Assembly: GCA_004369085.1 (NCBI GenBank) | Contig: ML210213.1 | Span: 10,539 to 74,538, forward strand | Direction of reading: 5' to 3' | DNA length: 64,000 nucleotides | Source: Coprinopsis marcescibilis | Taxonomy: Eukaryota; Basidiomycota; Agaricomycetes; Agaricales; Psathyrellaceae | In this document: positions 39,302 to 64,000 of the stretch, one piece after another | Numbering within the stretch: position 1 is the stretch's first letter | Layout of the letters: every line of letters starts with the position of its first letter | Made by a program: the position numbers and the translations under genes | Notes under the pieces: model-generated | What the model saw: the letters and a program-made list of their open reading frames with translations, nothing else | Told to the model about the DNA's origin: nothing | The model's database searches: none

Positions 39302-40033
39302 ATGACCAGCTTCTTCCACCGGCTTGCTGGTTCGGGAACCGTCTCTCCCTCCTTTGACTCGCCACCGACTTCAGGCCGCGGATTGCAGCGACTTCAACGC
39401 AAAATCAAAGCCTTACGCCCCGCAGAGAAGCCATACATTCGTCGTGTCGGCTCACCTCGCCCCCTACCCAATTCATATTGGGCCACCCCGCTGCTCGTAG
39501 CATGCGAATACCCCTGGACGCCCAAAGACCCCAACAATCCCAAGCTTGACGATCTTCTACGAGTTGGCGTGCGGACGTTCATCGATCTCACAGAAGACGG
39601 TGAATTACTACCATACGAAGATATCCTTTGTAAACGAGCTGGTTTGCTTGGGATAGACCCTTCGACAATTGAATACCACCGTTTCCCAATCCGCGACCGC
39701 TCTCTGCCAAACTCCATTGACTTCATGGATCAGGTATTTATTACCTTGCGATTGAATGAGCAGAGAGGCCGCGTCAGTGCTATTCATTGTCGGGGAGGTA
39801 TCGGGAGAACTGGGGTGGTTGTTGGGTGCTGGCTTGTGGAGAGTGGTGCCGCTTGCTCCGGGGAAGAGGCTCTGCGAATCATCGACGCTGAGTGGCGAAG
39901 CGTAGAGAAATGCAACCGTTATCCTCACAGCCCTGAAACTGGTCCCCAGTTCGATTTTGTCTTCAATTTCGAGCGTAGGAGCCCGATCCCTAAACTCTCA
40001 GCGAACAGAGCGGAGGTCGTGTGCCGAGCTTGA
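39302..40033 (+). CDS. Dual-specificity protein phosphatase (DSP-like)
   Basis: A single-exon frame of 243 residues from ATG 39302 (MTSFFHRLAGSGTVSPSF). A TATA box lies 143 bp upstream, so the open frame further upstream is probably leader. The catalytic loop AIHCRGGIGRTGVVVGCWLV has the Cys-x5-Arg signature of cysteine phosphatases. Upstream, VRTFIDLTEDGELLPYED and PIRDRSLPNSIDFMDQV supply the expected general-acid loop (Asp in PIRDRS). WPA-like substrate loops are absent. Substrate is unknown. Related proteins in bacteria and fungi act on Ser/Thr/Tyr phosphates or nucleotide-derived phosphates. Confidence 0.85.
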   Translation: MTSFFHRLAGSGTVSPSFDSPPTSGRGLQRLQRKIKALRPAEKPYIRRVGSPRPLPNSYWATPLLVACEYPWTPKDPNNPKLDDLLRVGVRTFIDLTEDGELLPYEDILCKRAGLLGIDPSTIEYHRFPIRDRSLPNSIDFMDQVFITLRLNEQRGRVSAIHCRGGIGRTGVVVGCWLVESGAACSGEEALRIIDAEWRSVEKCNRYPHSPETGPQFDFVFNFERRSPIPKLSANRAEVVCRA

Positions 40034-42619
40034 TGCCTTTCGCCATCAGGTATGATGTATATCCGCTTTCCCCGTTGTCGACATTATAGTAACGCAACCT
40101 ACCCACCTCTAGACCATCTCATTCCCATTGCATTCAAGTCTCAGCTAGACTGCGGGTATCTACTAGATGAATGAGCCCAAAACTCTACATTTCCACCACA
40201 CTGCATTTACGACCTTTCATGCCCCTGCATTTTCCTCAATCACATTGGACTGTACTAGCTCCACGTTTTTCTTTGCGCATCTTGGTACAGCCCACATTCA
40301 CGTACTATCTCATTCACAATTTTTGTAAACACTCGTAAATCCTAGGCTAGGGCTGATTAATGAATGTCATTTCTCAGTTCACAGATCCTGCTAGACGTCC
40401 TCGCCATGCCTCCCGTAGAACCTTCCGGTGACGTTCTACGTAGCCATTGTACATCCGACCAGGCCGGCGGTCATACCAGGGTTTTAACAGCACCTTGATT
40501 TGCAACGAGGTTGGCAACGTTATCATTGGAGCCTCGCACGAAAAGCTCGTACTGAAGGTGAAGGACACACGATTGGCGACCAGATTGTTGCGATAGCAGG
40601 CCTCTTGACTCCCATGGACCGTCAGGTAACTAGCATTCCTCATGTCTACCGCCTTTTTGATACGAGGTGAGCTCAGGGCTCACTCAAGGACTTTTTCATC
40701 GACTAACACTAGGGTTAAGGGCTTTTCAGCGGGTCAGTTGGCCTCGACCTCGCACAGATACCTGTGAAAGTGTCTGATGGTGTGCAATAATGGGTCTGCG
40801 GTGGTCCAAATCGCAAAGCAACGGAACTGGATTGGTTGGGAGTTAGCGCCAAGACACCCAAGGACAAAGGGCTTCGGGAGGATCTCCGCATGCCCCTATT
40901 GGGCATGTGGCTGTGCTTTTAATAGAATTTGACGCGAGACGCGCTCTTCAATTAGCGCCCAATCTGCTCAACCAGAGTGACTAAGAGGCGACTGAGATAC
41001 AAGAGTAGCATTGTCCTACCAAATACTGCTCGGCGAAGGTACTGAGTCCAGTACTTCGGCGAAATGTGTCCTGTAAGGGTCTTATGTGACGTGGATGAGT
41101 CAAGAGCATTTCATTCGGAATGTGACTCACGAACTGGCATTGTGATCATTCCCTTCAGCTTCATAACCACTCATAACCACTCACAGCAGATCACTTTTGA
41201 TCCTCCTTCGTACAAACAGAATGATAAAAAGCATGAGCTTACACTCAAGGGTGCGGGTCAGGATAGCGGTGCTGCCCGAAAGCTCTGTCGCCTTGGTAGC
41301 CTTTCTGGGAATACCAAGGATAGACCATTAACGGGAATACGCGAGGGCTCCTTGAGCCAGTGCAACTGGTTAAAGCTTATCATGAAAACCAACTCTCACA
41401 CATTGGGCTCCTATCTCGAAATGTATCATTCTCAAGAGCCACCGTTCTCACAGCAGGGTGGAGTACTGCGGCATGCGGCCTGCAAGCCAAATTATCTCCC
41501 ATTTATGGAAATCTCCTCTTCTGGGGTAGGTTTCGCAACCCGGACAGATTCCGAGAGCTAGAGTCGTTGAGCACTTCTTTAAGTGCTGACGAGGACCCTG
41601 TGAGACTGACCCACATACATAGACATACACCTGGATTCCCTAGTAAGCTCACAAAACCTTGTCAGTCAATTAGATCATTCTTATCCTTGCCAGTAATCAG
41701 CTGGAGATTACTGGCTCAAAAAACAGGCTCTCCGGTTAGCCAGCTTCGCCGAATGCCCTAGTGTATGCCAAATATACCATGGTTAGAACTTAGAGAGCAT
41801 CTTTCTTCAACTCGGGTACATGCAGTATTCAACAGCTTTAGACCCTCGGGCCTCGGTATGCCGTCGGACTCTAATCACCTGTCAGGTATTGTTGAGAATG
41901 AACAATGTTAACACACCCCGGACTAGATCCCGGACGGTTCTTTTGTCAGGTGGAAGGAGCTCATCCAACTCATACTTCTCAGCTGTGCATCTCTTAAATG
42001 GTGATAGAAGAACATATATCAATCATATTGGCTCCATAGAGGTACCCATGTAAAGGATGTAACTACGAAGGAAAGGGCAAGTCTATGTGCTTCCATAAAG
42101 TAGGAGCTTCTATCTCCACCAGCAGCCCGATATATATAACCTTACAAGTCGCAGTCCCTTAGAAACGCAGGATGTGTTCCGGATGTGTGCGATGATTTGC
42201 AATGATGAGTACCACAACAGACGGCTATCCTTACAGCTATCTGTAGACAGTACTTGTGCACATTAGACAGTCGAGGTAGGTTCTCCATAAACGCCACACT
42301 TGTACCCTACCTCACGAGGGTAATGGAGGTAGAGTGTAGCTTGGCAGACACTGTTATACACTGATAGCTGGTTCACCTTGAGTGAAACACATCTACAATA
42401 CAATGTTTATCAATTCCGTCCTTGAACTCATTGATACCCATATGATGCAAGTACCCGAGTACTCCCCGGGGTCTGGGAGTTTAAAGCGATCACCGAAGAC
42501 AGTACGACTCGTATAAGAGTTGCGACCTTGGGTATCCAGCCTATTCCAGCCCTTTCAACGCCAATTCTCTTGTACACTTGTCACACCAAGCCCTGTGCCT
42601 CTCCTATTTATATATCCCA
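40034..42619. other. Gene-poor region upstream of the pheromone-like genes
   Basis: About 2.6 kb without a convincing gene. An 89-codon minus-strand frame at 40374-40643 ends WRGRLAGSVN and is protein-like near its C-terminus. It has no recognised family and could be antisense to the phosphatase 3' region. The 41-42.5 kb stretch contains only short frames full of stop codons. Confidence 0.45.
42512..42518 (+). promoter_or_regulatory. TATA box of pheromone precursor gene 1
   Basis: TATAAGA lies 108 bp upstream of the ATG at 42620. A second TA-rich element (TATTTATATATCCC, 42605-42618) directly abuts the ATG and is probably leader. Confidence 0.45.
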
Positions 42620-42712
42620 ATGGATGCATTCGTCGAGCTCGTGCAAGACTCAACTCGTCACTTTCCTATCCCTATTGCCGCTGCGGTACCACCGCCATGC
42701 ATCATAGGTTGA
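42620..42712 (+). CDS. Putative lipopeptide mating pheromone precursor (CIIG CaaX box)
   Basis: An intronless frame of 30 residues starting MDAFVELV and ending PPPCIIG followed by TGA. The Met-Asp-Ala-Phe start is common in basidiomycete pheromone precursors. The terminal Cys-Ile-Ile-Gly fits a CaaX box for farnesylation, removal of the last three residues and carboxyl methylation. Between them lie DSTRHFPIP and a run of Ala/Val/Pro, so the mature peptide would end in ...VPPPC. At 30 residues it is short for the family, whose precursors usually have 35-70. It lies 1.2 kb upstream of a second gene of the same type on the same strand. Such genes are routinely missed by gene finders. A chance frame is the main alternative. 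Confidence 0.55.
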   Translation: MDAFVELVQDSTRHFPIPIAAAVPPPCIIG

Positions 42713-43937
42713 TGTCGACGTCAGAACCGGTGCGTACTAGACAGCACAATAAGTAACGGCTCTTCTTAAACTTCTAATAGGAGTTTCTGGCAAATTCTGC
42801 CCCGAAACCCGAAACATGGCTCGAAATCGACGGGTTGGATCTGTGGTTTGAATTCTGAGAAGCAGATGCTTCAGTATCTTCCGGTTTTAGGAGCTGCCTC
42901 TAGTATGGACAATGGTGCTCGAGTGACTTGTAGCCGCGACAAAGTGTTTGTGTTTACGAAGCTGTAGACTGTATTTGTGCGCTTTTGGTTTAATATATGT
43001 TCAGTAATCAAAGTCTCCGAACCACAGCGATAGGGAGCAGCTATCACATTCTAAGTTTGAAGATTCTGTGCGGGTGAACAGAGGATCCGCCGTTCAATCA
43101 TGGACCTGCTTATCAGCATGGCTGTGTTTAGCCGAACTAGTAAGCGCACAATTAGCGCCCAGTGCTTGATGTGAGTTTGCAAGTGCACAGCTTTGTGTCT
43201 AGTTGAAGGTGAGCAAAATTTACCCCTCGGCTTACAGATACCACAGCAGCATGGGCGAGGAACCACTTGAGCGAGCAAAACAGAGAAAACATGAACAGAA
43301 AGATGAATGATCGGTGATGCCATTGCGCCATCCCCAGTCGACGTTTCCAGATAGAGAAGGAAGCCCAATACAGGTGACATCCTTCCTAGACCAAGTGCAA
43401 TAGTCATGTTCGTGTCTGTGCTTCTTATCTGCCTATTGTCAGACCCACCTTTCAATTGGCATGCCACGATTAACGCCAAGCCCAATGGAAGAAGGGTGCT
43501 CAGCTTTGCGCCTCGCGACGGATGTTTAGCGAAGAGCCGAGCTGAGTCAATGGATTATGATTAATTCACTCAAAATATATTACGTAGCTTTATGCCCTCG
43601 GTGAAGCGCGCTTGTTCACAGGTTAGAGGCGTGGTGTAACTTTGTTCTCGTTTGCTACGATGCAGGTAGCCTTTGAATAAACCGAGGTCATGCAACGTTC
43701 AGTATCGCTCTCCGCTGATGATATCGGGGAGATCATGGATCTAATGCTTGATCCGCGTCCTTTTCAAGACTCAAAGGTCTTCATGCGAGCTCGGAGCCTT
43801 TCAGGCGCTGACATCCCGGGAGATTTCCGAGCCTACTGAAGGTATAAAAGCAGGTATATCGTCGAGTAGGATTCTGTACCAGCCCCACAACACACACGAA
43901 CGACCAGGCTTCTTCCCCACCTCTCGTACTCTGACCA
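42713..43937. other. Spacer between the two pheromone-like genes
   Basis: No supported gene. A 144-codon minus-strand frame (43051-43485) has hydrophobic stretches (VLGFLLYLETS, HVFSVLLAQVV) but also Cys-rich and stop-flanked segments. It lacks residues I would expect of a STE3 receptor. Confidence 0.45.
43843..43849 (+). promoter_or_regulatory. TATA box of pheromone precursor gene 2
   Basis: A perfect TATAAAA 95 bp upstream of the ATG at 43938, at a similar distance to the element upstream of the first pheromone-like gene. It supports a short, intronless, strongly expressed transcript. Confidence 0.6.
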
Positions 43938-44081
43938 ATGGATATCTTCACTCCTCTCACTGTCAATGAAAACAATGTCGAGGCAGCCACTACTACTACT
44001 TCGAAAGGGGCTCCAGCTGTCCCTGCAAACGAGCACACCATCGCCATGGTGCCTCCGCCTGTGTCTTGCACGATTGCTTAA
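43938..44081 (+). CDS. Putative lipopeptide mating pheromone precursor (CTIA CaaX box)
   Basis: An intronless frame of 47 residues starting MDIFTPLTV and ending MVPPPVSCTIA followed by TAA. Cys-Thr-Ile-Ala is a good CaaX farnesylation box. The length and polar, low-complexity pro-region (ENNVEAATTTTSKG) are typical of basidiomycete precursors. The charged pair in PANEHTIAM sits about 11 residues before the Cys, where N-terminal processing usually cuts, giving a mature peptide of roughly HTIAMVPPPVSC or shorter. The PPP shortly before the Cys is shared with the gene at 42620. A strong TATA box lies 95 bp upstream. No receptor gene (STE3) was found in the window. Confidence 0.65.
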   Translation: MDIFTPLTVNENNVEAATTTTSKGAPAVPANEHTIAMVPPPVSCTIA

Positions 44082-44828
44082 TTGCTTCACAAGACTATTC
44101 AATGCAATGCTCATTAATATGCCTCCCTCAATGATTTTCGTACGTCCCTCTGTTATTGGTTGAAAAACTGGACTATGTGCTTATCCCGCGGTATATTTAA
44201 CATAGACGGCTTTATGAACACGAACAAGCTTGAACTGTAGAACTTTTGTTAGAAAGAACTACTGTGCGCATCAGCAAAAGCCAAGGCGCGTGTGAGGCAT
44301 GGCGCGGATGTGGGGAGGCTGGCGCGTGTGGGCACACTTTGCTACACGCGCCATCAGGCGAATGAAGAGACGTCACTATACTCGAAATAACTGTAGTATA
44401 GAGGAGTGACAATTCTCTTTGGACTCTACCACCATCCTCTTTTAGAACGAGCTGCAGATAACCATCTATTCCAGTTATTCTCTCCGATCCCAACAAAGAC
44501 CAAAAACTAAGAACTGAAAGGGTAGTAAAGGCTTATTTTCATTTGGGATTATATGTGTATGGACTGGGAAGTTGAGCTTGAAGGCTCAGTGCGACACCAA
44601 GCACAGGCTGAGGCTGCTTACCCTTTTGATCCTGTCAATGCTGGAAGAATTGTGGAAGAAAACTTTACTTGTCACGGCAGGGTTCGAACCCGCGATCATT
44701 TGAATTACATAGCCATCATCTACTTCGATCTCCGCTTCAAAATGACACATTCCGGTTGAATGCGAATTGTAACCGTTCCTTGTTTCTGTCCTTCAAGGCG
44801 TGCAGCTTTGAAATTCAGCTTTGGTACT
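44082..44828. other. Intergenic region
   Basis: 3' flank of the second pheromone-like gene and promoter of the RS-rich gene. GGGTTCGAACCC (about 44681-44692) resembles a tRNA T-arm or B box, but a full tRNA does not fold (see rejected items). Confidence 0.5.
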
Positions 44829-46233
44829 ATGTACAGCGATCGGATTCTTGACAAAGGGCTTAACGACAAGCCTGGTGAGTACAGTCAATGCCTAACCCGA
44901 CAGTTTGCGTACTCACTTACCTCCCTGATCATACCCATGCCAACTGCGGAAAACATGCAACGACTCGTGTTCTTTGGTGTCTCTAATCGGACAACTATGA
45001 CGCTCTGATGTTATGACTGGGACTCTTAACAATCCAGGTCATGAGAAGCATGGTAAGGAGCGAAGAGAACGATGGGAGGATGGAGAGAGGGAGCGTGACA
45101 ATCGCTCAGACTCCACTCGTGATTCTGCCCCAAAGTCCCGCTGGGACGATAGGAGACCAAGGACAGACTACGTGAGTCCTCTAGCTCGTTATGACCGTGC
45201 AAAATGCCCTGACGCAATCCAAACAGACGAGAGAACCCGATTTTAGACGGGAAAGCCTCCATTTTCCAAAAGATTCCAGAAATACGGACCATCATCATCT
45301 AATTCGTGGAAAAGGATCAGCAAGCGACGATTTAAACTCTGGAACACACTATAGAAACTCCGTACGTTATCCTGACCTTCACGAACGCCATCCGCCTAAC
45401 CTGTGAAGTACACGTATTGCATATGTCGCCAACGTTGCTCGCCCGCTGCTTAGGATTCGTCGAAGGAGCCCGAACGGACAAATGGTTATTCCTCTCGTCA
45501 CCGTGACAGGGATGGCCACAAGGGTCACGAAGACGACAACCGTAGGCTGGATCGGCATTCTAGACACGCAGGTTCTAAAGCCGACAGTCCCGAACGCTCC
45601 CGCCAACGTTCGAGACACCACAACCATAGAGGAGAACACGAAGACGCAGACGATCATGCACATCGTAAAGAACGGGGGACGTACAGAGATGGCGTTGATC
45701 GGGTTGACAAGGACAAGCCCACCGGGGAGCATTCTCCAGAACGAGGAAGAACGTCCACCCGGCGTTCACCATCCTCTCCAAGCCGTACCACCTCTTCCTC
45801 TTCTTCTCGGGCCTCAAGCAGCCGCGAACGTCAGCACTCTTCAATCAAGCGCCGACCTCGTCACAGGTCGAGGTCCCACTCCCCTCGAAGCAGGAGCCGT
45901 GACAGATCCTCCAAGAAGGACAAGCACCGAAGCACGAGCAAGGACGGGAGAAAGTCCAAGAAGCGGGATCGCTCAGACTCTCGTGACCGGGACCGCAAGA
46001 GGAGGAGGAAGAGGGAGAGTAAACGAGACAGGGAGTCGGACAGGGAAGAAAGGAGAAGCGTGTTGACCGGCAAAAAGGTTCGGATCCGGTTACGTGGGAG
46101 GTTATCGTTGTCCAATACTAACCTCCTATCTTGTTTACAGATCAAGCTCAAGGTCAAGAAAGATCGTGGAGACCATGAACGCGATGCGAACAGGCAGGAT
46201 CTCCTGCAGTTCTTGAACTCTACGTTTGAGTGA
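44829..46233 (+). CDS. Arg/Ser-rich (RS-like) nuclear protein
   Basis: I infer five exons. A short exon from ATG 44829 (MYSDRILDKGLNDKP) joins GHEKHGKERRERWEDGERER after a 5' intron ending at about 45040. The intron then ends in frame, giving SRWDDRRPRTDY, TREPDFRRESLHF and DSSKEPERTNGYSSRHRDRD. A long basic region follows with many RS, SR, RD and KK dipeptides (RSRSHSPRSRSRDRSSKKDK, SDSRDRDRKRRRKRESKRDR). The last exon gives IKLKVKKDRGDHERDANRQD followed by LLQFLNSTFE and stop at 46231-46233. RS-like sequence suggests a role in pre-mRNA splicing or nuclear speckles, which is inference from composition. No RRM domain is visible. If the 5' exon is wrong, the start would be ATG 45015. Confidence 0.65.
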
Positions 46234-46425: not shown

Positions 46426-48511
46426 TCACAATCCATAATCTTCGATGAGGTCCCGGATGCCCTCTCTGGTGCTTGCAACCCGTGGTTCCAGTATGACTTT
46501 GAAAGGAAGAGGGTGTGTGTTGGCAGACTCTGTAAAGGCGAGTTCGTCAATGGGTGATTTCGGGTCAGCTTTGATGTTGAAAGCCCAGTGGACGAGGGCG
46601 GTGTTGATGAAGACGGATCTAAGGATTCCGAAGAGGTCAGACCGTACTCGCTTGAAGAACCGGAGCTACACATACGCAGCGGCAATATGCTGACCAGGAC
46701 AAATTCTATGGGGCGAGATATTTCGGATTAAATGAGGTAGGGGAGGACGAGCGGATAAATTGCACGTACCGGCGACCAAAGCCGAATGGGTAGGATTTCA
46801 TGTCCTCCTTGAGCTTTCCGTCAGCGGTTAGCCAGCGTTGAGGGTTAAAACGTTCTGGATCCGGGAAGTATTCTGGGTCCCGTCCAATCGCCCTGTAAGA
46901 ACATGATCAGGATGAGGTGTACATGATTCAATCGATGCACTCACCAGATGTTACCGATAACAGCCGTCCCTTTTGGAATTACATAGTTTTGCTGATGAGC
47001 ACATGGTGTTAATTGGAGTAACGTCCAAAGCTTGGGGCTACGGAACTTACCCAGACGATGTCTTTTGTAGCTTTATGAGCGAATCCTGTGCGTCAATGGA
47101 AACCTCCAATCAGCATCAATCCGAAGAATCCGTGATTATTCTTACCTCCAGCGCTCACAGGCCTCCACCTGAGTGTCTCCAGAACGAAGGCCATGGTTTG
47201 AGGAAGCATATGCTGATCCGAAAACGTCGGTGCTTTGCCTTTCCCAATCACCTGGTCGAGTTCTTCATGCACACGCCGCTGAGCCTCTGGATAGCATGCA
47301 GCAGCGAGGATTCCAATGCTGATCGCAGAAGCCGTCGTATCAGATCCAGCACCAAACATGCTCCCGGCAAGGTAAGCTGTTTCGTCGTCCGAGAGCTCGA
47401 GTTCTGCCTGTCGTTCCAGAAGGTACTTTCCAAACGATTGCGGAACCTCTTCTCCTCCATCCTATTCCGATGCCCGCTGTTAAGGAGGCTAGCGAGACAG
47501 AAAAGAGAATGTGGCGGCTTACTATTGCTTTCTTTACTTCGTTCAGTTGCCGTTTAAAGAGGGCTAGTTCTTCTGCATGACCGTCTTTGAGTTCTTTGAG
47601 GTAGCCAGGGACGTAGCTGCGTGCGAGTTGTGGGCAAGCGTGGGTTTTGCAGGGAGTAATGCTTACCGCAAGAATGGGTAGACATCCACACGCCAAACAC
47701 CTGGTCGAAGCGTGTTTCCGAGACGTGTTAGACAACGATTAACTGCCTGAACATCAGGATCGTGATATGATTTGGGGTGTCTTCCATATGCAAGTGCCAT
47801 GACCACCGATGCCGAGTATCTGAGAAACAACCATCAACATGAATCTTCGTTACATGTTGAATGTATCACCTCTTTGCATGGTCCTGGTGTTGTTCTGGAT
47901 CTTCTATGAGGTCGATGATATGCTGACGTGCTTTGCTCATGAGAACTGGCGAGTAGGATGCGACGATCTTTGGCTGCAAGTGTGCGTGAAGCGCTCTGAT
48001 AATGCGGTTAGAAGACGACAGACAGTACTCCAAAATACATCATCCGCACCTTCTCATCTTCTTGAACCGCTCGCCGGCCGGTGTGAGTAGCACTCGCATG
48101 CCTCCCGAAAGTGTTTCTCCAGCAGAGATGGACAAAGGCCGGTCCACGAGCGCGGCACCCTCCTTTTCCATAATTTCCACCGCCGCTTGCATCCGTCCAA
48201 TCACGACGACGGTCTGGAAGCCTTGACGAAGTGCGAAGACCGGCCCATACTGCTTCGTCCATTCTTCGAATTTGCGATAGGCACTTGAAGATACCGTTCT
48301 GTAAGACTGCAGTCTGTCTACATAACGGGGGCTCCACTCACAAGGCTGTAGGTATCGCGTTGCCAAGAATCGGGTGTCCTGGTGGGCCAGGGGGGAGCAG
48401 AGATTTAAGTGACCTGCTGCGATATTTGTGAATCAGGCCAACGAGGGCGAGACACAGAGCGACAGCAGCGATTGTCGAATGTTTAGCGAGCAGTGGCCAG
48501 AGGGTATCCAT
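46426..48511 (-). CDS. Cytochrome P450 monooxygenase (class II, microsomal)
   Basis: The start at ATG 48511 gives a membrane anchor (STIAAVALCLALVGLIHKY) and a proline hinge (LPPGPPGHPILGN). Then WTKQYGPVFALRQG, VVVIGRMQAAVEIMEKEGAA and DRPLSISAGETLSGG. Later come I-helix GAGSDTTASAISIGIL, the ExxR motif in FVLETLRWRP, and YFPDPERFNPQRWLTADGKL. The heme loop FGFGRRICPGQHIAAAYV is formed across an intron whose acceptor lies only a few codons before the Cys ligand. The commoner Arg after CPG is Gln here. A final intron joins SVFINTALVHWAFNIKADP, and the protein ends REGIRDLIEDYGL with stop TGA at 46426-46428. The frame and motifs look intact. Substrate is unknown. Basidiomycete relatives often oxidise xenobiotics or secondary metabolites. 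Confidence 0.88.
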
Positions 48512-50071
48512 TGTGAGATGGGATTAAGATCCGCTTGGGAGAGGCACAGTTATGTATGAGGAGCCTGGGGAGGAAAAGATCCGAGATGACATCTCCAAGC
48601 GGAGAAGAACGCAAGGCCCCTGGATGTGGATACAAGGGGGAGGCTATCTGAATCATGTCTCGCACCCCACGCGCCTCGCTATCGAAGAATCATCGAGCTG
48701 TCGGCTTCGGTCTGAACTATTCCTGTACCTCAGGTCAAACTATAGGCTGGAGATACTAGGAGCGCGAGTGTTTACTTACCGGAGAACCAGAGTATAAATG
48801 GAGCCTTTGATATTTCTACGTGAATTGCATTGAAAACGCGACGAATTCAGTCGGGTTTGAAGCGAACATGACCTACGAAGGTACCGTCCGTGCATTTCGC
48901 TTGGCGTCCTTGAGCGTCGGACACGCACCACAGCTAAATCCTAGGTCACACAAAATGGTTTGCACGTCCGTATATGGCCGGCTAAATTGTTGAAGCGGGT
49001 AGGTTAGCGTGAAATGGATTGGAATGTTCGTAACAATGGAGGGCTCGGGCGGATCTGAATTATGTGCACCATTCATTAGTACAGCAGTTGCACAAGTGGG
49101 CACCGGTCACCACTCACATGGAATTTCTGGGCCTGATCCCATAGTACTCTGGTAGATATCAGTGACCCGCCGAGCAAAGAATATCGGGGCAGTGGCAAAC
49201 TGCATCAAGACGAGGGAGTCAAGACGTCCTAGGCAAATTTGGAGGCTCGGGAAGACCAAAACTTTGCATTTTCAAGAACCTGTCGCTTCCAAAGTAGTTT
49301 CTCGGATACCCATGTGCACCTGAAGAGCTGAAAATCCTTTTGCGCAGAATTGGTTTGACAACCGTGAGTGCCAGCCACTGACCCGGGGCCCTGCCAAACT
49401 TGAGGATCCCGGGGCCAATAGCTTTACATTCAAGCAAGCACAAATCGCTTCATACCGCCAAAGGCTTTGAACCGTCGCAGACTCGATGCTAGCCTAGCAC
49501 AGTTTCAATTGTTTGAAGCAAACCAAAAGAGGAACTCACTAGGGAAAATTTGCAGATGGCAGTAGTATTATATCGCCTTTGTCCACATGTAAAGTTGTCT
49601 AACTTTAACTGGGCCGCCGTGCGCTTAGGCATGCCATTGGAGCTGCTACCCAGCATTGTTTCGCGATTGCTCCGATTACCCGCAGAACCTTTGAGGAGAA
49701 TATCTTACGCTAATATGGAACTTCCGTTCATTCACGTCGACTCCACTCCTATGTGTACCTTATCTAATCTCAGATATACCCTAATCTAATCGTATAATCT
49801 ATCCCACGGACAACTTCGAGAAGGTAAGCCCCGTATCAACATTAACTTGCACCGAATAAACAGACGACCTTCAGGATTTCAACTACCATTGGATTCCAGC
49901 TAGTTTCAACTGTGGGCCTGTGCCACTCCGGTGCTTGGTCGATGGCATTCACATCAATCAAACATACGGAAGTCATCAAACTTACCGACCATTGTCCTCG
50001 ATCCAAGCGCGTGGGTATATATACCCAGCGCTCGCCCTCAGAGGCTTTCTTCCTTACAAGCATCTTCCACA
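48512..50071. other. Intergenic region
   Basis: P450 promoter at the left and F-box promoter at the right (TATA-like TATATATAC near 50016-50024). One low-confidence minus-strand coding fragment lies at 48890-49224. Nothing else is supported. Confidence 0.5.
48890..49224 (-). CDS. Hypothetical protein fragment
   Basis: Two putative exons join in frame over a GT-AG intron of about 63 bp. The first reads LMQFATAPIFFARRVTDIYQ followed by STMGSGPEIPY. The second reads PPEPSIVTNIPIHFTLTYPL, then SRPYTDVQTILCDLGFSCGA, ending KRNARTVPS at a TAG. The sequence is protein-like, but no start exon or family is recognised. It may be the 3' part of a gene whose 5' exons lie around 49250-49450. Confidence 0.3.
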
Positions 50072-51178
50072 ATGGCCAGCATCGAAGCACTCCCCACAGA
50101 GCTCCTCTCAGCAATTTTCACGCTGTCTATCAACTCGACTCTGGCAGCAACCAGGCCTACTAGCAAGGAATTCTATCTACCTTCTCTCACGACAAGCTAC
50201 GACACAGTGAGGAATATATCCACGACATGCACAAGCTGGAGGCGCATATCGTGCTCTCTGAAAGACCTTTGGACTAGAGTTCACTTGGATACTGCAATGG
50301 AAATCAGTGCTGAGGCCATCCAAGATTTACATGCGGTATTCGCGAGATCGAATACTCGGTCGCTCCATTTCGACTTCACTGGTCCTTCAGGGCGGTCTAA
50401 CATTATCAACAACGCAAAAAAATGGGCCTCTCTCATATCGTCAGACGCTGCCAACCGTTGCAAATCTTTACGGATCGCTTGCAGCTCGGAAGACGCTGAA
50501 CTCGTGTTGAAGCTTTTGTCGCGCTACGGTCCCCCGAAGCGTCTCCAATGCGTGCACATTATTCAAGAATCTGGTTCGCCTACTATCGATCTCTCTTTAG
50601 TCGACTATACACGTCTACAGCTCTTATCTGTCCGAGGAGATGGTGTGTTACCGGTCGGGCTTCCACATTGGGGATTGGACAATGTGGTCCTTCAGGACGT
50701 TTCTATTTCACAAAGAGAGCTAAGGATGTTGATCACGGCTGTTGCTGTCCGACACCTTACCCTGCGAAGGGTACAAGTTCCCCCTGGCCTTGACTTTGAC
50801 ACGGCGACACCAGACGACTATGCTGAGTGGCTCGACTATTATGCCAGCCATGCCCGGCTCGAATACCTTGAACTTGACGATATAATCGACGAGTTTCCCA
50901 CTACCAGCAGCCCAAACCTCAACCACGCTTCATTTGCTAGACACATCCTGATTCCATACACTGCGAGAACTCTTAAGCGTGTCAAACTCACCAATGTGTC
51001 CACGGTGATGGGAAATGGACTGGCTTCTCTCTGGGACCAGCCATTGCTGGCATATCCCGAAGTGAAACGCGTTGTGATAAGGTTCAAAGACGAAAATTCG
51101 ACGGCCAGTCTGAGAAATGCGCAAATTGACTTCGCAGATGTTACGAAGCGTGTGTTCCCTCGAGCTCATCTGCTGTAG
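50072..51178 (+). CDS. F-box-like protein
   Basis: A single-exon frame of 368 residues from ATG 50072, chosen over the upstream in-frame codon at 49931 because a TATA-like element lies at 50016-50024. It starts MASIEALPTELLSAIFTLSI, a typical F-box N-terminus, and the box continues with VRNISTTCTSWRRISCSLKD and LWTRVHLDT. The C-terminal part has irregular LRR-like strands (RLQLLSVRGDGVLPVGLP, VRHLTLRRVQVPPGLDF, LEYLELDDIIDEFPTT) and ends at 51178. Probably an SCF ubiquitin-ligase substrate adaptor. Target unknown. Confidence 0.75.
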   Translation: MASIEALPTELLSAIFTLSINSTLAATRPTSKEFYLPSLTTSYDTVRNISTTCTSWRRISCSLKDLWTRVHLDTAMEISAEAIQDLHAVFARSNTRSLHFDFTGPSGRSNIINNAKKWASLISSDAANRCKSLRIACSSEDAELVLKLLSRYGPPKRLQCVHIIQESGSPTIDLSLVDYTRLQLLSVRGDGVLPVGLPHWGLDNVVLQDVSISQRELRMLITAVAVRHLTLRRVQVPPGLDFDTATPDDYAEWLDYYASHARLEYLELDDIIDEFPTTSSPNLNHASFARHILIPYTARTLKRVKLTNVSTVMGNGLASLWDQPLLAYPEVKRVVIRFKDENSTASLRNAQIDFADVTKRVFPRAHLL

Positions 51179-51249: not shown

Positions 51250-53932
51250 TTAATTAGAACCTTCTCTGCGCCTTTCCCGTCTGCACTTGCAGATATGGTT
51301 AAATAAACACATTAATTGTAACTCCCCCGTGGAAGATCCCCACGGATCTTGCGACATTACTTTCCTGGTAATTTCGACGGCCTCAGAGCTCGGACCGCAG
51401 GCCAGCTCGTAGTTCCCTAGCTTTGCATAACACAGTGCCCATTGCCTGAGCAACCTTGCCAGATTTCCTAGGCGTCTATCGGGAAATAGGTGGGTTTGAG
51501 GTACCGAAGTCACCTGAATGAGATATGTTGTTATTTCCTCCAAGATGCCGGCCTCTTCTGTATAACACTCAGAGATGTCCAATTCATGACAAATGATCAT
51601 GAACAATTCGGCCAAATCCGATGGTAGGTTGGGATCGAACGTTTTACCCAGGTTCACTGGTGATGCAGTTTGGATGGCCAATCCTTCTCGTGCAACAGAA
51701 ATAGCTTTTCCTAGCTGCTTAAACTCCAGTAAGAACCCTGCGTACGTGATGAGAGAGTGCGTAAGCTGATCTTGCTTTCTGTTTCCCAGCTGGCGCCAAA
51801 TACCGATGGATTCTTCGATTGCAAGTATCGCATCGTCGTATCGTTTATCGGCAGCGTAGAAAGAGGCCATTCTTTGGAGAAGTCCTGATATCGTGTCCAG
51901 CTCCGATTCATATGCTTCAAGTTTCAAGTCCTCCTTGGCCGAAAGTGAGCGGCGAATTTGAATGACCTTCCCGACTGCAAAGGCAGCCTCCGCATACCGG
52001 CCGCAAGCGTTGTACGCGATAAAGAGGTTATGGAAACTGTCCCTGAGACTGAGCTCGATGGTTGGGCTGGTACGTGCTGCCGCCAACCTGGCTTGAATCT
52101 CTGCAGCGGCTTCGCCAAATTCGATCGCCTTGGTATGGTTGCCGAGGCATTCATGATACAGAGCGAGGTCGTAAAGCGAAGTCGCAAGGGTAGACTCGTA
52201 GGTTTTTGGATCCTGTGACACCAAGTCCCGACGAAGTGGGACAACTTCCTCGACAGCTTCTATAGCGTCGTGATATCGGTGGCACCAATAATAAGCGATC
52301 GATAAGCTGTCGAGGGAGTCGCACAGATTTCTTTGGTACTGGTGGTCCATAGAGAGCAGTGTGCGAGTCAGCGCCACAGCCTCCCTCCGCATATCAATCG
52401 CCTTGTCTCTTTGGGATAGCTTTTCCAAAGCTGTGGCGCGGTCCTCGAGTACCATTGGGAGTTCTGTTTGATAGGACAAGGTGTTGGGTTCCAGGGCAAT
52501 GACTCTACGATAGACCTCGGTAGTTTCAGAAAGAGCCTTTTCAGCACCCGAGTACCGCTCGCAGGCTGAAAGCGACGTTGCTAGCACGTGAAGGCACACT
52601 GCAAGGTCGGGTTCGTACTTGTTTGCGTCCACATTGACCAATTTGCGGCACGCCTCCACGGCCTCTGTCGCCACCTCAACCGCCGATTTGTAGCCGTTCT
52701 TGGAAAGAGTGCTTGCGAGAGTGCGAAGCATCTTGACGAGCGTTGGTAGAAACCTGTCTTCGTCCACCGTCATCAGCTCCCGAGAAATCTTGATCCCTTC
52801 TTGAGCGATTTCTAGCATGCTTTCGTATCGGCTCAGGGAATAGAGACAGATTGCGTGCATGCGCATAGCAAGCGCAAGCGCTTCTCTGGCCCCGGAGTCT
52901 TGTGTAACTTCGCAGATCTGCTGGCGTAGCTGTACAGCATGTTCAATGATAAGAACTGCTTCTTGAGACCGGCAGCACTCATCGAGGCAGGTTGCCATGG
53001 AGAATAGGCACTGAGCTAGTGGCTCGGCCCACGATGGAAACAAGGTCGTCAGTTTGGAGCCTGGCGGGGATATTGACTGTTAATAAGAATTGTCAGTACG
53101 TATATGCTGCCACACGGTGTGAGTCGATTCTTACCTGAACGAGTGCTTGTAGATCGGGAACAACTTCTCCCAGCGATGCAGTAACCTCCAGAAAGCTTCG
53201 AATGTTCGGGAAGAGGATTTCGGTTACAAGCGTTACATGTGACTTTTGAAACAAATCGGAGGGGATGGCGAGCAAGTGGTGGAGAAGGAATTTGCAGCTG
53301 TACCATAGTGGCTCTACGATATCGCCCTTCTTGAGAAGCGGAATGCCCGGGACGTGGAAGATGTCCCATTCTCCCTCTGTGTAGCCTAGTATTGGGACGT
53401 TTGTTTTGTTGAGCTGCTTGCCGATAGTGAGGAGTAGCAGGCGTCCAAGGTCGAGGTTCTGTTTCTTCGAGTCAATTCTATACGGAGAAGGGGCTCTGGA
53501 GGTAAGATATATCTTGATGGAGTCATTGATGAGTCGAATGGGCTTGTGTATGTCGGTTGAGTCTTGATTTAGGAGAAAGGGTCCCATTCGGGTACATATC
53601 GCCTGTACTGACGCTATGTCGAGGCCTTCGTGCCCATCATATATCGAGACAATTGCAGCGGGCGAGAGCGGTTCTTTGAGGGTGACAATCGCTCCAACGA
53701 CGGTATGGTATAACTCGATTAAGTCAGAATTGGGTCCTATGTGTGTCGCAAGAACACGATCATAGAGCGTCTCCATCTTTGTTTCAGCATCTACGTCTCC
53801 TTCGAGACACTCATTCGATGATCCATCCGCAGCAAACGAGGATAGAGAAGCTGTCTGCGGGAGTCGTGCGCCTGTCGCATACTCCCAGAGAAAGGGCTCC
53901 GCCGCCTCAAAAGAATTAATCCCACTCGTCAT
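51250..53932 (-). CDS. NLR-derived protein: post-NACHT module plus TPR array, lacking the P-loop (paralogue 1)
   Basis: Two exons: 53932-53135 and 53076-51250, with a 58-bp GT-AG intron. The N-terminal 266 residues (MTSGINSFEAAEPFLWEYAT onward) match the region that follows the ATPase in fungal NACHT-type STAND proteins: LYDRVLATHIGPNSDLIELY, VVGAIVTLKEPLSPAAIVSI, CTRMGPFLLNQDS, IRLINDSIKIYLTSRAPSPY, LGYTEGEWDIFHVPGIPLL and SFLEVTASLGEVVPDL. About 600 residues of degenerate TPR follow (AVLIIEHAVQLRQQICE, AIDMRREAVALTRTLL, AIEAVEEVVPLRRDLVS, AILAIEESIGIWRQLG). No Walker A or Walker B motif is seen, and upstream DNA is occupied by the ChaC gene. It could be a truncated receptor, a decoy or adaptor, or a 5'-decayed NLR. 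Confidence 0.7.
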
Positions 53933-54451
53933 CGCGTTGGTTTCTGCAGTTTACAACGCCATTAAGGAGATGCAGACTGGAAGAAATATTCCGCCACTTA
54001 CCTGACTCTGAGGTTTCGACGTCCACTTTAGCGTTCACGAGATTTCCGGATATTCGTATTGAATTCCGCGTTCTGCTCAACGTAACCACGCCAGGTGAAC
54101 AGGTTCTTAAGTGGGATATCGAGGTGATGAGTTTCAAGAAGAAGTAAGATCGATAGGAGTGGGTACAGATTTCGAGACTTGCAGTAGACGATGAAGCACT
54201 GAAATGTGGAAGCTATGTAGGTTTACGGGCGTGTGGGAGTTTGATGACACATTGCCGCATTACTTTCGAGTACGGCTTGGACCTGACATGAAGAGTTCAA
54301 AACGGCGCTTCAGATGGTTATCTTCCGGAATCTGCTGTCGAAATAAGCACGCAAAAATCAATCGTCTTGATTATTAGCGTCGAAAACAGAGGTGTTCTAT
54401 AAGGCTGAGAATTGCGGAATCCATTATATTGACCGTTTACCACACGGGTCA

Positions 54452-56573: not shown

Positions 56574-58475
56574 CTAAGAAGCCCGACGAAGCACTGCTAC
56601 ACTCTCCACGTGTGCAGTCTGGGGGAAAAGGTCGAACCCTCGCACGCTTTCCAGGATGTATTTGGGCCCCTTGCCCGTTCTGCCAGCCTCCATGATCTGC
56701 CCAACGTCCCTCGCCTGAGTGTGGACGTTACAGCTCACATAAACAACGGACTTGGGACCAAACTCCAAGAGCTGCTTTATGAAAAACTCATCGCAGCCCT
56801 TCCTTGGGGGATCGATCAACACCGCAGTCTGGTCTTTGGGGAAGTCGGCTACCACAGCAAATATCTCGCCTGCGTTGCCCGCACGGAAGGATATCTTGTC
56901 CGTCGAGATGTTGTTGAGCTCGGCGTTTCGAGTAGCGCAACGGATCGAGTCCGGAGACAACTCGATTCCAGCGACCTTCTGGAAGGATGGGGAGAGGACA
57001 ATGCCAAACAGGCCAGCCCCGCAGTAGGTATCGACGAGATGGGTGAGGTCTGAGGGTGTGGTGGCGATTGGTGGGAAGATTGCATCCCTCACGTAGTCGG
57101 TGAGGGGAAGGAGGACAGAGTTATTGTTTTGGAAAAAGGAGCCGCCAATGTATTCGAATATCCAGTCGCCCACTCGTTCTCGAACCATGTCTTTCTGCCC
57201 TGTCACACATACGTGCTTGTTGAAGGCGTCAGAAAGACGGTCCACAGGGTCAACAAAAGTGTCAAGAGAGTCTCGGAACAGCAGCGAGACACCTTTTTTG
57301 TACGTGTGGATTTTTCTGTACAATGGGAGGTCAGCAGAAGGAAGGCTTCGACGACAGCATGAGACCTACTTTATCACGTCCTCGCGAGTTTCCTTCATTT
57401 GATCGTTGATGATAGGCGTGGCTATTGGACAATCTTCAATGTCCAGGACTTTTTGTGTCCCAACTCGATTGAACCCAATGTTCAACCAGTCGGGTTTGCT
57501 CGTAGGCGGTTTAAGGGATGTGTTGCGGAGGTGTTTCGGCGGGGCCTCGAAATGGGGAGTCAACTTGGTACGGTATTGGTACTGCAGGGGTGAGGGCGCT
57601 GTCGACAGAACCTCTGGCATTTCTTCGTTGGAGAGGTCTGCACGAGATGTAAGGCAGGGTGTTACTGCGAATAGCTATGACATACTCGAATAGTTCTGGA
57701 ACGCTTTGACGACCACGTTCCGTTTAAAGTCCAGTTGCGTTTCGTATGACAGCATCTGGTATTGGCATCCTCCACACGTGCCAAAGTACTTGCACTGGAT
57801 CCTCGAACTATCTCGCAACTCTGAGTTGGGCGTAATGACCTCCAGCAAGTCACCAAGTGAGTGGAGTCGTCCGTGTCGGTATATCCGTGCCCTGATTCTC
57901 TCGTTTGGTAGGGTAAGAGGGACAATTACTGTCCATTTCTGTGACGAATCTGTAGAAACAGCAATTCCATCGCCTACAAAAATGTCAGAACAATGTCCCA
58001 GTGTACTGGTCACACAACGCGCACCATTCGAGCCCAGGACTTTTACCTCCAGTTCCACCTCTTGCTGGAACGCAAAAGGACTATCGTAAGCCTTTTCTTC
58101 TCTGATCAGGCCTTCCACGACGTCGCTTCCCAGCACAGCGACGATATCCTTCCATAAAACATCATCCGACGAACATGGTTCAGGAAATTTTTCGAGCTCC
58201 CGTTTTCTCCTAGCTTCCCGCTTTCTTTCTCGCTTCACAGATACGAACTTCTTGTTCTCGACTTCCAGAATATTGATTACTTCTGTGCGCGGCCGTTTTG
58301 AAGCCGGCAATTCCTGCTCGGAATCAGACAAATTGCGCACCTGCCCGACCCGTTCCTGTTCAGCCATTGAAGTCATCGAAGTTCTGAAATCCCGAGTAAA
58401 CGCGCGCAGGTTGCTGTATTTGAACCTTTGAGAAAGCAGGTTCAATTGCCGGGGAATTATGAAGGAAAAATGCAT
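56574..58475 (-). CDS. TRM2: tRNA (uracil-54-C5)-methyltransferase TRM2
   Basis: Makes 5-methyluridine-54 (ribothymidine) in tRNA with S-adenosylmethionine. The open frame starts at ATG 58475 (MHFSFIIPRQLNLLSQRF). This first stretch is basic and hydrophobic and may be a mitochondrial presequence, with internal starts at MTSMAEQERV. A lysine-rich segment and OB/TRAM-like region follow (VKVLGSNGDGIAVSTDSSQ, VPLTLPNERIRARIYRHGRL), then a Cys cluster YFGTCGGCQYQML. The SAM domain has DTYCGAGLFGIVLSP, GIELSPDSIRCATRNAELN and AVLIDPPRKGCDEFF. The catalytic Cys is in VVYVSCNVHTQARDVG. It ends HVESVAVLRRAS. Introns of about 50 bp are removed; one (about 57975-58025) is in frame. All signature residues of the TrmA/RlmD family are present. 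Confidence 0.92.
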
Positions 58476-58940
58476 AGCCAGTCACAATTCTCCAATTGCT
58501 CCGCCAAGGATGGGTCGGGATATTCCGAGGCGGAGATATAATTTAAACAAACACGTTCAGGATCCGCTTGATGAGTTAGTCTTGCCGATTCTCGGCGAAC
58601 CAAACATATTCCTCTTTTCCTTGTTTCTCCCTTCCATTACTGATTGGTATTCGCTTGTACATCGGCGAGTCTGACTGACCTGCATAGAACCTGGATCAAG
58701 ACAACAGTCCATTGCTAATAATCCGATTTTCTTCGCTCTGCTGATAGCCTGGCAGACTTGGATACTTCTGTACAAGTGTCTGCGGCACAGCCTCGAATAG
58801 TAGGCTTTATGGCAGTTGTCTCCCATCGACGGCACCGTCACGGTGACATCTACAGCAAATCGACGGTGCTGTCTGTCCACGTTGTTGACCTTTATCATTC
58901 TACTCCCACGTAGGAGAGTCGATTTCGTGGTTCAACTCAC
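58476..58940. promoter_or_regulatory. Divergent promoter region (TRM2 and TPR paralogue 2)
   Basis: 465 bp separate the two start codons. No TATA box is obvious and no coding exon is seen. Confidence 0.45.
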
Positions 58941-61776
58941 ATGGACGAAGGCAAGCAGAGTGGCTTGCTTTCAAGGGTGCTGAGGAAGATGGGTAACGTG
59001 AAGCTGGTCAAATCACAAGGCAGTATAGGGGTGGTCCAGGTAGAGGATATGACTGGTATGTTATTTCCATTAAGTTCTGCGAATCTGAACTGCAACATCG
59101 TTATAATAGAATCATTGTGTAGTTGGACACCGAACAGCGAAGACTGGCAACTGTATCGCAACCACTATTCGGAATTGGAGAAATACATAAAAGGCACACC
59201 GACGGGACCAGTCTCCTCTCGAACCCCGTCGGACCTTCCAGAAGGCAACGAATATGACCACCGACAGGGAGGTCTCGATGCTTGTGCCAACCTCGACAAC
59301 CTTTATCTACAAATCCTGGAAACGCATCTAGGAACGAATGAGGCTCTTATAGAAGATTATCGTGGCGTCATGGGAGCTATAGTCACTTTACAAGCACCGC
59401 TCTCAACCAATGGCCTTGTCTCCCTATGCGGTCGGGCATTGATGGGACAGGCAAAGGTAGACCGGGTCTGCATGCGTATGCGGCCTTTCCTCAGCGGATA
59501 CACGTTCAGCCTACCGCACCAACCAGTTCAGATTTTGCACGAGTCGATACGGTATTATCTGACTCAGAGGGCTCCCCTTCAGTATCGCCTACATCCACTG
59601 CCAGAGCAACATGAAAAACTCTCCAACCTAATCCTTGCCGCCATCCAGGATCAGGTCAACTCCAAGAAGATTCCTGAGTTAGGATATTCAGGAGGAGATT
59701 GGGATATATTTGACGTTCCAGCAATACCACATTTGGAGGAGAGCGTTTCGGAGCACCTGCGGTATAGTTGTATGTTCTTGGTCGATCATCTCCTCGCCAT
59801 AATACCGGCGGGGACGATCCAAATGGCTCTCATACAAAGGGCTCATCAAATCATCCTTTCGCACCCCCGATCCATTCTCGAACTCTCTGCGTCATTGGGT
59901 AGAGGGAGTGACTTGTTACCTCTAATCAGCCTTGCACTGGTGAGGCTTATTGCAATGGTCTGCTCGTCCAAGATTGATTCAACTGTTCATGCAGAATAAT
60001 TTGCCCAGCAGCGCGGATCACGGGATACCCTGGCTCAGGCCTCTCCCTCCCATACTTCGGAGAATCGCGACGTGCCTGCTGGAAGACGCGCGACCCAAAG
60101 AGGCATTACCCCTCCTCCGAGAGGCCGTCGACATTAGCCGGCGGATTCTCGATGTTGAACAGCCCACCCCAGAAGCAGAGCAAGAGTTGATTATTTCCTC
60201 ACGAGAGTTGACCTACTGCTTAAATTTCCTGAAGCAGTACGTGGAGGGACGTTTGGCTCTCGAAGACTTAGTCGCACCTACTCGTCGGCTGGCGATTGCA
60301 GATCCAGAACGATTTGCAGGGGTGCTGGGGAGGGTTTTGCGGTCACTCTCCCTTCCCATTTCCATGACTGGCGGTAGTCCAGCCGCCCTCCTGCTCTCCA
60401 AAGAAGCAGTAGAGATCCATCGGAGGTTGGCGCAACAAAACGAGCCTCGATACGTTGGAGATCTCTCAGCCTCGCTTTTCGCATTGGCAGACGACTACTC
60501 AGATCTGAAGATGTACAACGAAGCCAAGGAGACGACCCGCGACGCTATTGAAAAATGCCGTCGATGCAATACCCTCAATCCCAAATCATCCACCTGCCAG
60601 GCTCGGACTGCAGCAACCCTCCGTTTTCTGGGTTCCATGGAATCAAAGCTTGGGAATACAGAAGCAGCAATCGAAGCGATGAATGAATCCGTCGCTATTC
60701 TTAGGCGTTTAACGGGCGTAGTGGATTCGCGAAAGTACCACGAGTCGCTTGCAAAATCGTACGAAAAGCTCGCCTCGCATTATTCTTCGGACGAGAAATA
60801 CCATGAAGCTATCGAAAATGTCAAACGATCCATTCTAATCCGGCGAATGCTAGTCGAAAGGGACCCGCAACAGTTCAAAGCCAAGTTGGCGAAGTCCCTC
60901 GATGACCACTGTTATTCGCTAGGACGGCTCCGTCAGCATCGCGAGGCGGTCGATGTGGGTGAAGAGGCTGTCGTAATCCGCCGTGACCTGAACACGGAAG
61001 ATCCGACGACGCAGAATAAGGCCGATCTCTCATGGTCACTCCTTCATCTTGCCCGTCAAAAACATCATTTGGATTGCTACAACATCGACAGCTTGAAATT
61101 CAGTCAAGAGGCTGTCGCACTTCGTCGGCAACTAACGCTCGTTGAAGACACCAAGTACGAGGGAAGGCTCATCTCATCCCTTGTAACACATATTGCTTGC
61201 CTTCGAAAGCTCGATAGGTTCTGCGAAACAAACGCGGCCTTCGAAGAAGCCATCACCGTTTCACGTCGGGTCGTTTCTAGGACATGGCCCGAGACGTCAA
61301 ATCAACTGCAGCTGGTAGATCTGCTCAGCGACTACGGGTCAGTGCTCGCAAGCATCGACCGCCTGGACGAGAGCATTTGGGTGTACGAAGAAGTGGTCAA
61401 CATCCTCCGCTCGTTAGGAGCATCAAGCCCTGAGTCAACACATTCCTACTCCAGGGAACTGCTCAGTGGCCTAGATTCGCTGAGCAAGTTGCTCGACCGC
61501 GGTTCGCGCATTCAAGAAGCCGTTCAAGTGGTCCGGGAAGCCATCGATGTGCGGCGTCAACTTGGGGTAGCGTCAAGTAGGAGTAAGCACACACTTGGAG
61601 AGCTTCTTCGTAACTATGCTTGGTTCCGTGCAAAGACGGGTGAATACGCGGAAGCCTCTGGTCCAGATATGATCGAGGCGATCCAACTGCTGAGGTCCGC
61701 TTGGAGTGCTCAGGACGAAGTTCAACCAGCATTGCTTTTCCACCATTTATGTAAGCGCAGACTGGACAGTGGATGA
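58941..61776 (+). CDS. NLR-derived protein: post-NACHT module plus TPR array, lacking the P-loop (paralogue 2)
   Basis: The start at ATG 58941 (MDEGKQSGLLSRVLRKMG) is followed by a likely in-frame 57-bp intron near 59056-59112, which if spliced gives VEDMT joined to ESLCSWTPNSEDW. The module is parallel to paralogue 1: LYLQILETHLGTNEALIEDY, VMGAIVTLQAPLSTNGLVSL, CMRMRPFLSGYTF, ILHESIRYYLTQRAPLQYRL, LGYSGGDWDIFDVPAIPHLE and SILELSASLGRGSDLLPLIS. An intron at 59940-59994 (GT-AG, phase 0) leads to NNLPSSADHGIPWLRPLPPI and about 590 residues of TPR-like helices (ALLLSKEAVEIHRRLA, AIEAMNESVAILRRL, AIENVKRSILIRRML), ending at 61776. No Walker motifs are present. Confidence 0.72.
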
Positions 61777-61872: not shown

Positions 61873-64000
61873 CTAGCTACTCTTGACCCTCTTTCGAATC
61901 ACATGTATACATAGAGCCTTAAATAGCCTACATGAATAAATGTCGGGGCCAAAATCCGGATTCAGAAGCTCCAGCTTGCGGAATGCGTCCAATGCTTCGG
62001 AAATCGTGGAAAGTGCATCTCCAAAGCGTGTCATTTGAGCAAGGTACCATGCATGGCGTAGTAGCCGATACGCAAAGCCAGCGTCCGACATTTCAGAGGT
62101 ACTCGGGGCCGATGAAATAGCTTTTCGATTAAGTTCGATTGCTTCCCCAGAGGCTGCTACTGCATCTTCGTAGCGCATAATGGCACTGAGGTTGTCGGCT
62201 AGGTGACATAACGAGCCCGCCAGTTCACTCTCAAGCCTGAGGGTGTTCCTGAGACCGGGTCCCGAGTCCGAGTCCGAATCCATGGCTGACAATATCCGAC
62301 GCTGAATGGAGATGGCCTCGTGCCCCACCTCGATCCCCTTTTCCACGCACTGGGTCCGCCCAAGAGCCCACGAATAGTTATCCAGACACCCAGCAAGTGA
62401 CACCTCGAATTCGAACTTTGTGCCGATTTCTGAGTTCTTGCTCGTTAATTCTCGTCGAAGAGAAACAACCTCTTCGAAGACCTTCAGAGATTCGGGGATA
62501 CGGTCGCACGACGCCAGGTATCCTGCGAGGCTCTGAAGCGCCAGTGTGAGATAATTCTTGTCTTGGGAGGTGGAGTTGGGACCTTGAACACGCTTCCGAC
62601 GGATGGATATGGCCTCTTCAATGGTGCTGATGGCTTCGGCGTAGCGCTCACACCGAGCGTAGCTGAACGCCAAATTGTTGAGAGTAAAGTCAATGTAGCT
62701 ACCATCTGATGAGGATGGATCTTCAGCAGCCAGCCTTCGTCTAATGAGAGCAGCCTCTTCGTATGGTGGTATTGATGCTATGAATTGCCCCAATACTCCG
62801 TAGTAGGAGCCCAGCCGATGGAGAGAGTGTGCCAGAACCGGCTCGAAAATCGGTGGGTTCCCCTCTGCCAACTCTCGGTGAACTTGAACCAGCCCGATCT
62901 GCGCCCATGTGGCCTGAGACGTCTGGTTATGTTTTTCGAACCATACAACCAACGTATGTAATGCCCTTGCGTAGTCCTCGCGGTAGCTGGAATCCTCAGA
63001 CGAAAGTCGGTAAAGCATGGCGATTCCTTCCTCGCGCGCCTCCAGCGACTCTTCATACCGGCCTGTTTCATCCAAGAGCCAAGCCAGAGCCATGCAGGCA
63101 TTTGCGGCATCTAACACAATCGATTGGTTCGAAGAGATGCAGCGTCGATATGACCCTATGCACTTTTGAATTGTGGAAATGGCGTCCTCGAAACGTTTAG
63201 ATGTCCTCTGGATTTTGGCTTTCCAGCGGAGCGAGGTGGCCAACTCCTGCTCGTGGTGAAAGTTTCCCGGCTCTGCAGAGCTAGCAACCTCACTATGAAT
63301 CTCCACAGCTTCCTCGAGGTGCTTCAGCGCGCGCTCGTCCTCGCCTTTCTCTCCTAGTGAATAAGCAAGCCGACGAAGTGAGGTTGCCAAAAGTGATTGA
63401 TACTCGTTCGAGCCCGAGTCGTGGGCGACCAGATCGCGAGCATGCTCGACGCCCTTTTCCATCAGCAGGATGCTCTCGTCGAAGCGTTCGAAGCTCTCCA
63501 GACACAAAGCACAGACTCGTATCGATGTCACGAGGTCTGCCTTGGCTTGGTTCGCCTCAGGGGAAGGATTCCCTTCCGTAAGGTGGGTTCGCAGGATTAT
63601 CGCCTCCTGAATAAGATGGATTGCTTCTGATGTCCGAAGGCTCTCTTCCAAACACTCGGCCATCGCGTGCATTGTGCGCGCAAGTCCCACCAGGTCTACA
63701 GAGGGTCGAGCGTCAATAGCTTTGGGGCTACCGGGATTTACGCCCTGGTTTCTTTACATGAGGATACGAAACATATCTCGAGGGTGGGATTACTTACCAG
63801 ATGCTTCGTTAGGGAAGGTAAATCAACGACCTTGCCCAACGAAGCGGTAATTTCTAGAAGTTGCTGCGGATAAGTGTGGACAAGATCGCACACATCGGTC
63901 TTGAGGGGTTCTTGCATTGTCTCATATGCCATCTCAAGGAGATGGTCGACGATTCGCGTGCAGGAGTACCACAGTGATTCTGAAATCGCGTCTTTGGCTA
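61873..64000 (-). CDS. NLR-derived protein: post-NACHT module plus TPR array (paralogue 3, 5' end beyond the window)
   Basis: The 3' exon 63744-61873 and the preceding exon (63798 to beyond 64000) are separated by a 53-bp intron (63745-63797, phase 0). The visible N-terminal part (AISESLWYSCTRIVDHLL, then LLEITASLGKVVDLPSL) matches the end of the post-NACHT module in the two paralogues. About 600 residues of TPR-like repeats follow (AIHLIQEAIILRTHLTE, ALKHLEEAVEIHSEVA, AISTIEEAISIRRKRV, VFEEVVSLRRELTSKNS, AVAASGEAIELNRKAIS). It ends IRKRVKSS and stop at 61873. Its 3' end converges on paralogue 2, 96 bp apart, giving a tail-to-tail pair. Whether an ATPase domain precedes it cannot be seen here. 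Confidence 0.7.

Follow-up and report, generated by a model that had tools for sequence, protein, structure and literature searches.

Two pheromone-like genes in the window

The window analysed here is a 64,000-nucleotide stretch (C68:10539-74538) of the 36.3-Mb, 448-contig draft genome of Coprinopsis marcescibilis (Agaricales, Psathyrellaceae). It holds two small plus-strand genes, neither with an intron in its coding part, which look like real lipopeptide-pheromone-like precursor genes missed by annotation. P1 (42620..42712, +) encodes a 30-aa precursor with an MDAF start and a VPPP-CIIG end, and P2 (43938..44081, +) a 47-aa precursor with an MDIF start, a Glu-His (EH) site, and a VPPPVS-CTIA end; the two starts lie 1,318 bp apart. 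Both frames, with their MD starts, PPP before the Cys, and CIIG and CTIA ends, are present exactly as a first-pass annotation had described them.

CaaX endings by themselves are frequent. The window contains 5 ATG-to-CaaX combinations against a mean of 1.5 per shuffled window, and 34 of its ORFs of 20-150 aa have a C-x-x-x end, 10 of which pass an aliphatic filter. It is thus the MDxF start, together with the signals on either side, that carries the weight. P1 and P2 are the only members of these 34 with an MD start and the only two MDxF...CaaX ORFs (25-80 aa) in the window, vs. none when the whole window was shuffled 200 times with dinucleotides preserved, which bears out the proposal that such a pair is unlikely to arise by chance. 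Alignment with 10 other precursors from the same genome leaves the M, D, and F columns invariant, and P1 and P2 align with 13 identical residues, MD, F, VPPP, and Cys among them. A recent tandem duplication was considered and rejected, as regions 42401-42960 and 43701-44330 share no DNA match beyond 9-12 bp.

Judged by its sequence, P2 is well formed, with its EH processing site, and P1 is weaker. P1 lacks a charged dipeptide, its CaaX box (CIIG) has Gly at the X position, and its 30 aa make it shorter than all 23 other precursors tabulated (34-65 aa, P2 included). Gly is not among the CaaX X residues named in the accessible part of PMC12387193.

Predicted products

In P2, Glu-His directly precedes a predicted 11-residue product, TIAMVPPPVSC (residues 34-44). 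Cleavage dipeptides ER, DR, EH, NH, EE, and DE, together with MDS/AF starts, are described for Agaricus bisporus in the accessible part of PMC8305134. Direct reading of P1 finds none of the dipeptides on that list; a cut after Arg-His would be predicted to give 13 residues, about FPIPIAAAVPPPC. Both predicted products contain proline and no Gly.

By analogy with known lipopeptide pheromone biology, each gene would give a short mRNA and a precursor with a farnesylated Cys. The last three residues would be cut away and the Cys carboxymethylated, and removal of the N-terminal part, in P2 after Glu-His and in P1 perhaps after Arg-His, would leave proline-containing peptides of 11 and 13 residues, respectively. 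The lipopeptide would then be exported and, if it signals, may act on a receptor of the STE3 type whose gene lies elsewhere, perhaps one of the non-mating receptors. Farnesylation, export, and receptor binding of these products are what we infer from the pathway.

Relatives and dispersed precursors in the genome

Neither P1 nor P2 scored against any Pfam family at E up to 10. A genome-wide search with PF08015 (fungal mating-type pheromone), also to E 10, returned 21 matches with P1 and P2 not among them, although the overall precursor design is alike. In searches of the genome, P2 matched only itself, with E values up to 10 allowed, and P1 matched itself and one weak site on C10 (E 0.08). The C10 site was rejected as a relative of P1: it falls within a long frame, an ATG ORF of 194 aa, and no mini-gene of the MDxF-CaaX type is listed at that place. 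Among 5.8 billion proteins, no candidate shared three 5-residue words with P2; this collection does include annotated C. marcescibilis proteins, in line with the earlier suggestion that these genes had escaped annotation. P1 is too short for a standalone search of the protein collection and entered only as a row of a 12-sequence profile (P2 included), which yielded 13 proteins at E up to 1 from 117 candidates, with PPP in none. A literature search found no paper containing both “Coprinopsis marcescibilis” and “pheromone”.

Many other MDxF...CaaX precursors stand on contigs without a match to PF02076 (STE3): two on C86, three on C122, and others on C37 and C71. Contigs C56, C47, C176, C132, C216, and C141, likewise without a STE3 match, carry a two-unit precursor family, and C85, C16, C418, and C31 contribute further precursor matches, recorded as matches only. 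Same-strand precursor neighbours 1.1-2.1 kb apart occur on C47, C56, C86, and C176, resembling the 1.3-kb spacing of P1 and P2; the C122 precursors lie about 4 and 10 kb apart, and other dispersed precursors stand alone.

Promoter and 3′-UTR layout

The first-pass annotation had noted a TATA box 95-108 bp upstream of each gene, and both were recovered: TATAAA at 43843..43848 (+), 95 bp before the P2 ATG, and a TATA-like TATAAG at 42512..42517 (+), 108 bp before that of P1. Splice signals further predict a 3′-UTR intron for each gene. The candidate intron of P1 (42730..42780, +; 51 nt, GTGCGT...TAATAG) would start 17 nt past the stop, and that of P2 (44140..44205, +; 66 nt, GTACGT...ACATAG) 58 nt past the stop.

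A uniform rule, TATA[AT][AG] 81-125 bp before the ATG and a consensus-like intron starting no more than 120 nt after the stop, was applied to 24 distinct precursors including P1 and P2 (28-75 aa, an MDxF or in one case MDISLD start, a CaaX end, and enough flank); some of these genes had already been inspected when its TATA range and donor list were chosen. The TATA box was found in 20 of the 21 precursors off the STE3 contigs (18/19 without P1 and P2, 85-123 bp before the ATG) and the predicted intron in 11 of 21 (9/19 without them), where 12 of the 19 other dispersed precursors are close two-unit paralogs and so not independent. P1 and P2 each carry both features. The controls, 336 ORFs of 28-75 aa from the window, gave the TATA box in 12 cases, the intron in 17, and both in one. 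The comparison group of STE3-linked precursors is small (three genes) and scored 0/3 for either feature under the uniform rule; one of them has a TATA at -158/-160, outside the uniform range. A looser donor rule gives a candidate intron in 1/3 of these genes and at 15% of 4000 random positions; the strict donors of that same comparison give one at 6% of the random positions.

That both ORFs are chance occurrences from which no peptide is made is a reading we consider extremely improbable. It would sit with the commonness of CaaX-ending ORFs, the lack of Pfam matches, and the lack of a database relative for P2, but it has to contend with the empty shuffles for MDxF plus CaaX and with the joint occurrence of TATA box and predicted intron in both genes vs. 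1/336 controls.

A 7-mer screen of upstream regions brought up a further element post hoc, ACAATA/TATTGT, which serves as a lead only. We take it to be an HMG-box-like element. It lies within 400 bp upstream of 18/19 other dispersed precursors, 0/3 STE3-linked ones, and 41/337 controls; P1 has it at -225 (window position 42395), and P2 does not within 400 bp, its nearest copy being at -504. The ACAAAGG core of the Ustilago-type pheromone response element does not occur in the 400 bp upstream of P1 or P2, nor in those of six other single-unit dispersed genes. The shorter forms ACAAAG (-298) and CAAAGG (-268 and -166) occur, within this set, upstream of P2 only.

The weaknesses of P1 raise the alternative that P2 is a working pheromone-like gene and P1 a degenerating or chance copy. 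The short length, missing dipeptide, and CIIG end of P1 agree with this, as does the absence of a common DNA match longer than 12 bp between the two regions. Set against it are the intact P1 frame, with its TATA at -108, the 51-nt consensus-like intron past the stop, and ACAATA at -225, and the 13 residues aligned between the two precursors. We regard a defunct P1 as a possibility of some substance, though an unlikely one.

Genomic setting and the mating-locus question

On contig C68 (144,443 bp), P1 stands at position 53,158 and P2 ends near 54,619. PF02076 has no match anywhere on this contig, over 53 kb on one side of the pair and about 90 kb on the other; genome-wide, its matches are confined to C24, C40, and C210 and fall into six groups, read by us as six receptor genes. 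In a Homeobox_KN family search, C68 likewise gave no match, and matches fell on C1 and C171 only. The first-pass annotation had proposed a mating pheromone locus with STE3 genes to be sought just outside the window. Its recognition of lipopeptide-pheromone-like precursor genes stands; the mating locus is not supported, as C68 shows no STE3 match and the TATA and predicted-intron layout is that of the scattered precursors. On the lack of STE3 and Homeobox_KN matches on C68, the mating-locus reading was set aside.

The three STE3-linked precursors, on C210 and C24, lie about 1-5 kb from STE3 matches, and one C210 gene is an exact match to the database record “pheromone precursor Phb2.2 B1”. These STE3 matches and precursors stand close to contig starts (C24:906-4066 and C210:313-6189), and the draft may have split this strain's B/PR locus between contigs. 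A locus that looks fragmented in this way leaves some room for P1 and P2 as B/PR mating-type genes, with C68 lying near the STE3 cluster and split off from it in the draft, and their divergent, non-Gly-rich products would fit the very distinct B-mating-type precursors mentioned in the accessible part of PMC4101180. The contig ends, however, are 53 kb and 90 kb away with no STE3 match on the 144 kb, and P1 and P2 share the promoter and predicted 3′-UTR layout of the dispersed genes, which the three STE3-linked precursors lack under the uniform rule. We therefore hold a mating-type identity to be very unlikely.

The neighbours that were scanned offer no link to mating. They are a DSP-type phosphatase at 39302-40030, a piece of a P450 at 47093-47359, a frame at 49904-51175 whose F-box-like match is weak and falls short of its cut-off, and a frame at 56574-57365 resembling a tRNA (uracil-5)-methyltransferase. 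The pair had been placed in a gene-poor gap, a fair description as far as a Pfam scan of eight open frames from 40377 to 45005 shows, with a best E of 0.045 (two of the frames overlap P1 and P2 in other reading frames). By eye, long frames at 51250-53950, 58914-61776, and 61873-63753 have a tetratricopeptide-type repeat look and are probably a local gene family. Similar-looking adjoining frames lie at 53093-53950 and 58914-59999; the former has no Pfam match.

Relation to known pheromone-like genes

Pheromone-like genes outside mating loci are already in print, for A. bisporus (PMC8305134) and, by similarity, for Pycnoporus cinnabarinus (PMC4101180), as far as the accessible parts of both papers extend. 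In A. bisporus they are described as scattered, with loose linkage to the mating locus at most, and three of four have an EST-supported 3′-UTR intron (PMC8305134, accessible part). P1 and P2 probably belong to this kind of gene, as divergent representatives of the “non-mating-type” pheromone-like precursors that lie dispersed in the C. marcescibilis genome. We favour this assignment because of the MDxF starts and CaaX ends, TATA boxes at the distance seen in the class, intron splice signals, the same-strand pairing, and a contig without a STE3 match. Counting against it are the missing Pfam match, the P1 sequence (no dipeptide, CIIG, short), products that are not Gly-rich, and the lack of ACAATA upstream of P2. 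On this assignment P1 and P2 are new, divergent members of a class that is itself published.

Like the non-mating precursors of A. bisporus, Coprinopsis cinerea, and Laccaria bicolor, as far as the accessible text describes them, P1 and P2 are short, with an MDS/AF-type start and a CaaX end. The 3′-UTR introns would be a further likeness to A. bisporus, where three of four are EST-supported; in P1 and P2 they are predicted. The non-mating-type peptides of these three species are given as Gly-rich, e.g. with the consensus GGGSGNGAYC (PMC8305134, accessible part). In P1 and P2, by contrast, the core is VPPP and the predicted product free of Gly, and P1, unlike the precursors so described, has no charged dipeptide. 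Agaricomycete B/PR mating-type precursors such as Phb2.2 B1 also share the MDxF start, the CaaX end, and mutual divergence with P1 and P2; the differences from them lie in the missing STE3 match and the layout set out above.

The function of mushroom non-mating STE3-like receptors, pheromone binding included, is described as unknown in the accessible part of PMC8305134, and a pairing of P1 and P2 with the receptors of this genome would bear directly on that question. One quite doubtful extension of the dispersed-class assignment is that P1 and P2 serve a private signalling channel of proline-rich farnesyl peptides, as ligands that have diverged from both the mating-type and the Gly-rich peptides and pair with a STE3-like receptor outside the main cluster, e.g. 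the single one on C40. If so, the mushroom would have a lipopeptide signal separate from mate choice. Unannotated, putatively TATA-driven precursors missed by Pfam also suggest that the peptide side has been under-counted, and the common promoter and predicted 3′-UTR layout offers a route to further precursors.

A two-unit precursor family

In the two-unit family, the first unit ends in CVIA, CVVA, or CVVS and is followed by QRP and a second unit within one ORF, as in the 57-aa example MDSFIVLP...YCVIAQRP...YCVIA. A CaaX box in this internal position should require cleavage before it can be prenylated. Fourteen genome matches span the entire 57-aa query, 12 of which were read, and similar two-unit proteins are present in the protein collection (P0001, P0007, P0008, and P0014). 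No report of such a design in mushrooms was recognised in a literature search judged by titles and abstract starts, with subscription papers mostly outside its reach. Tandem units with CAAX-like spacers are described for the rhodotorucine A precursors in the accessible part of PMC3068285.
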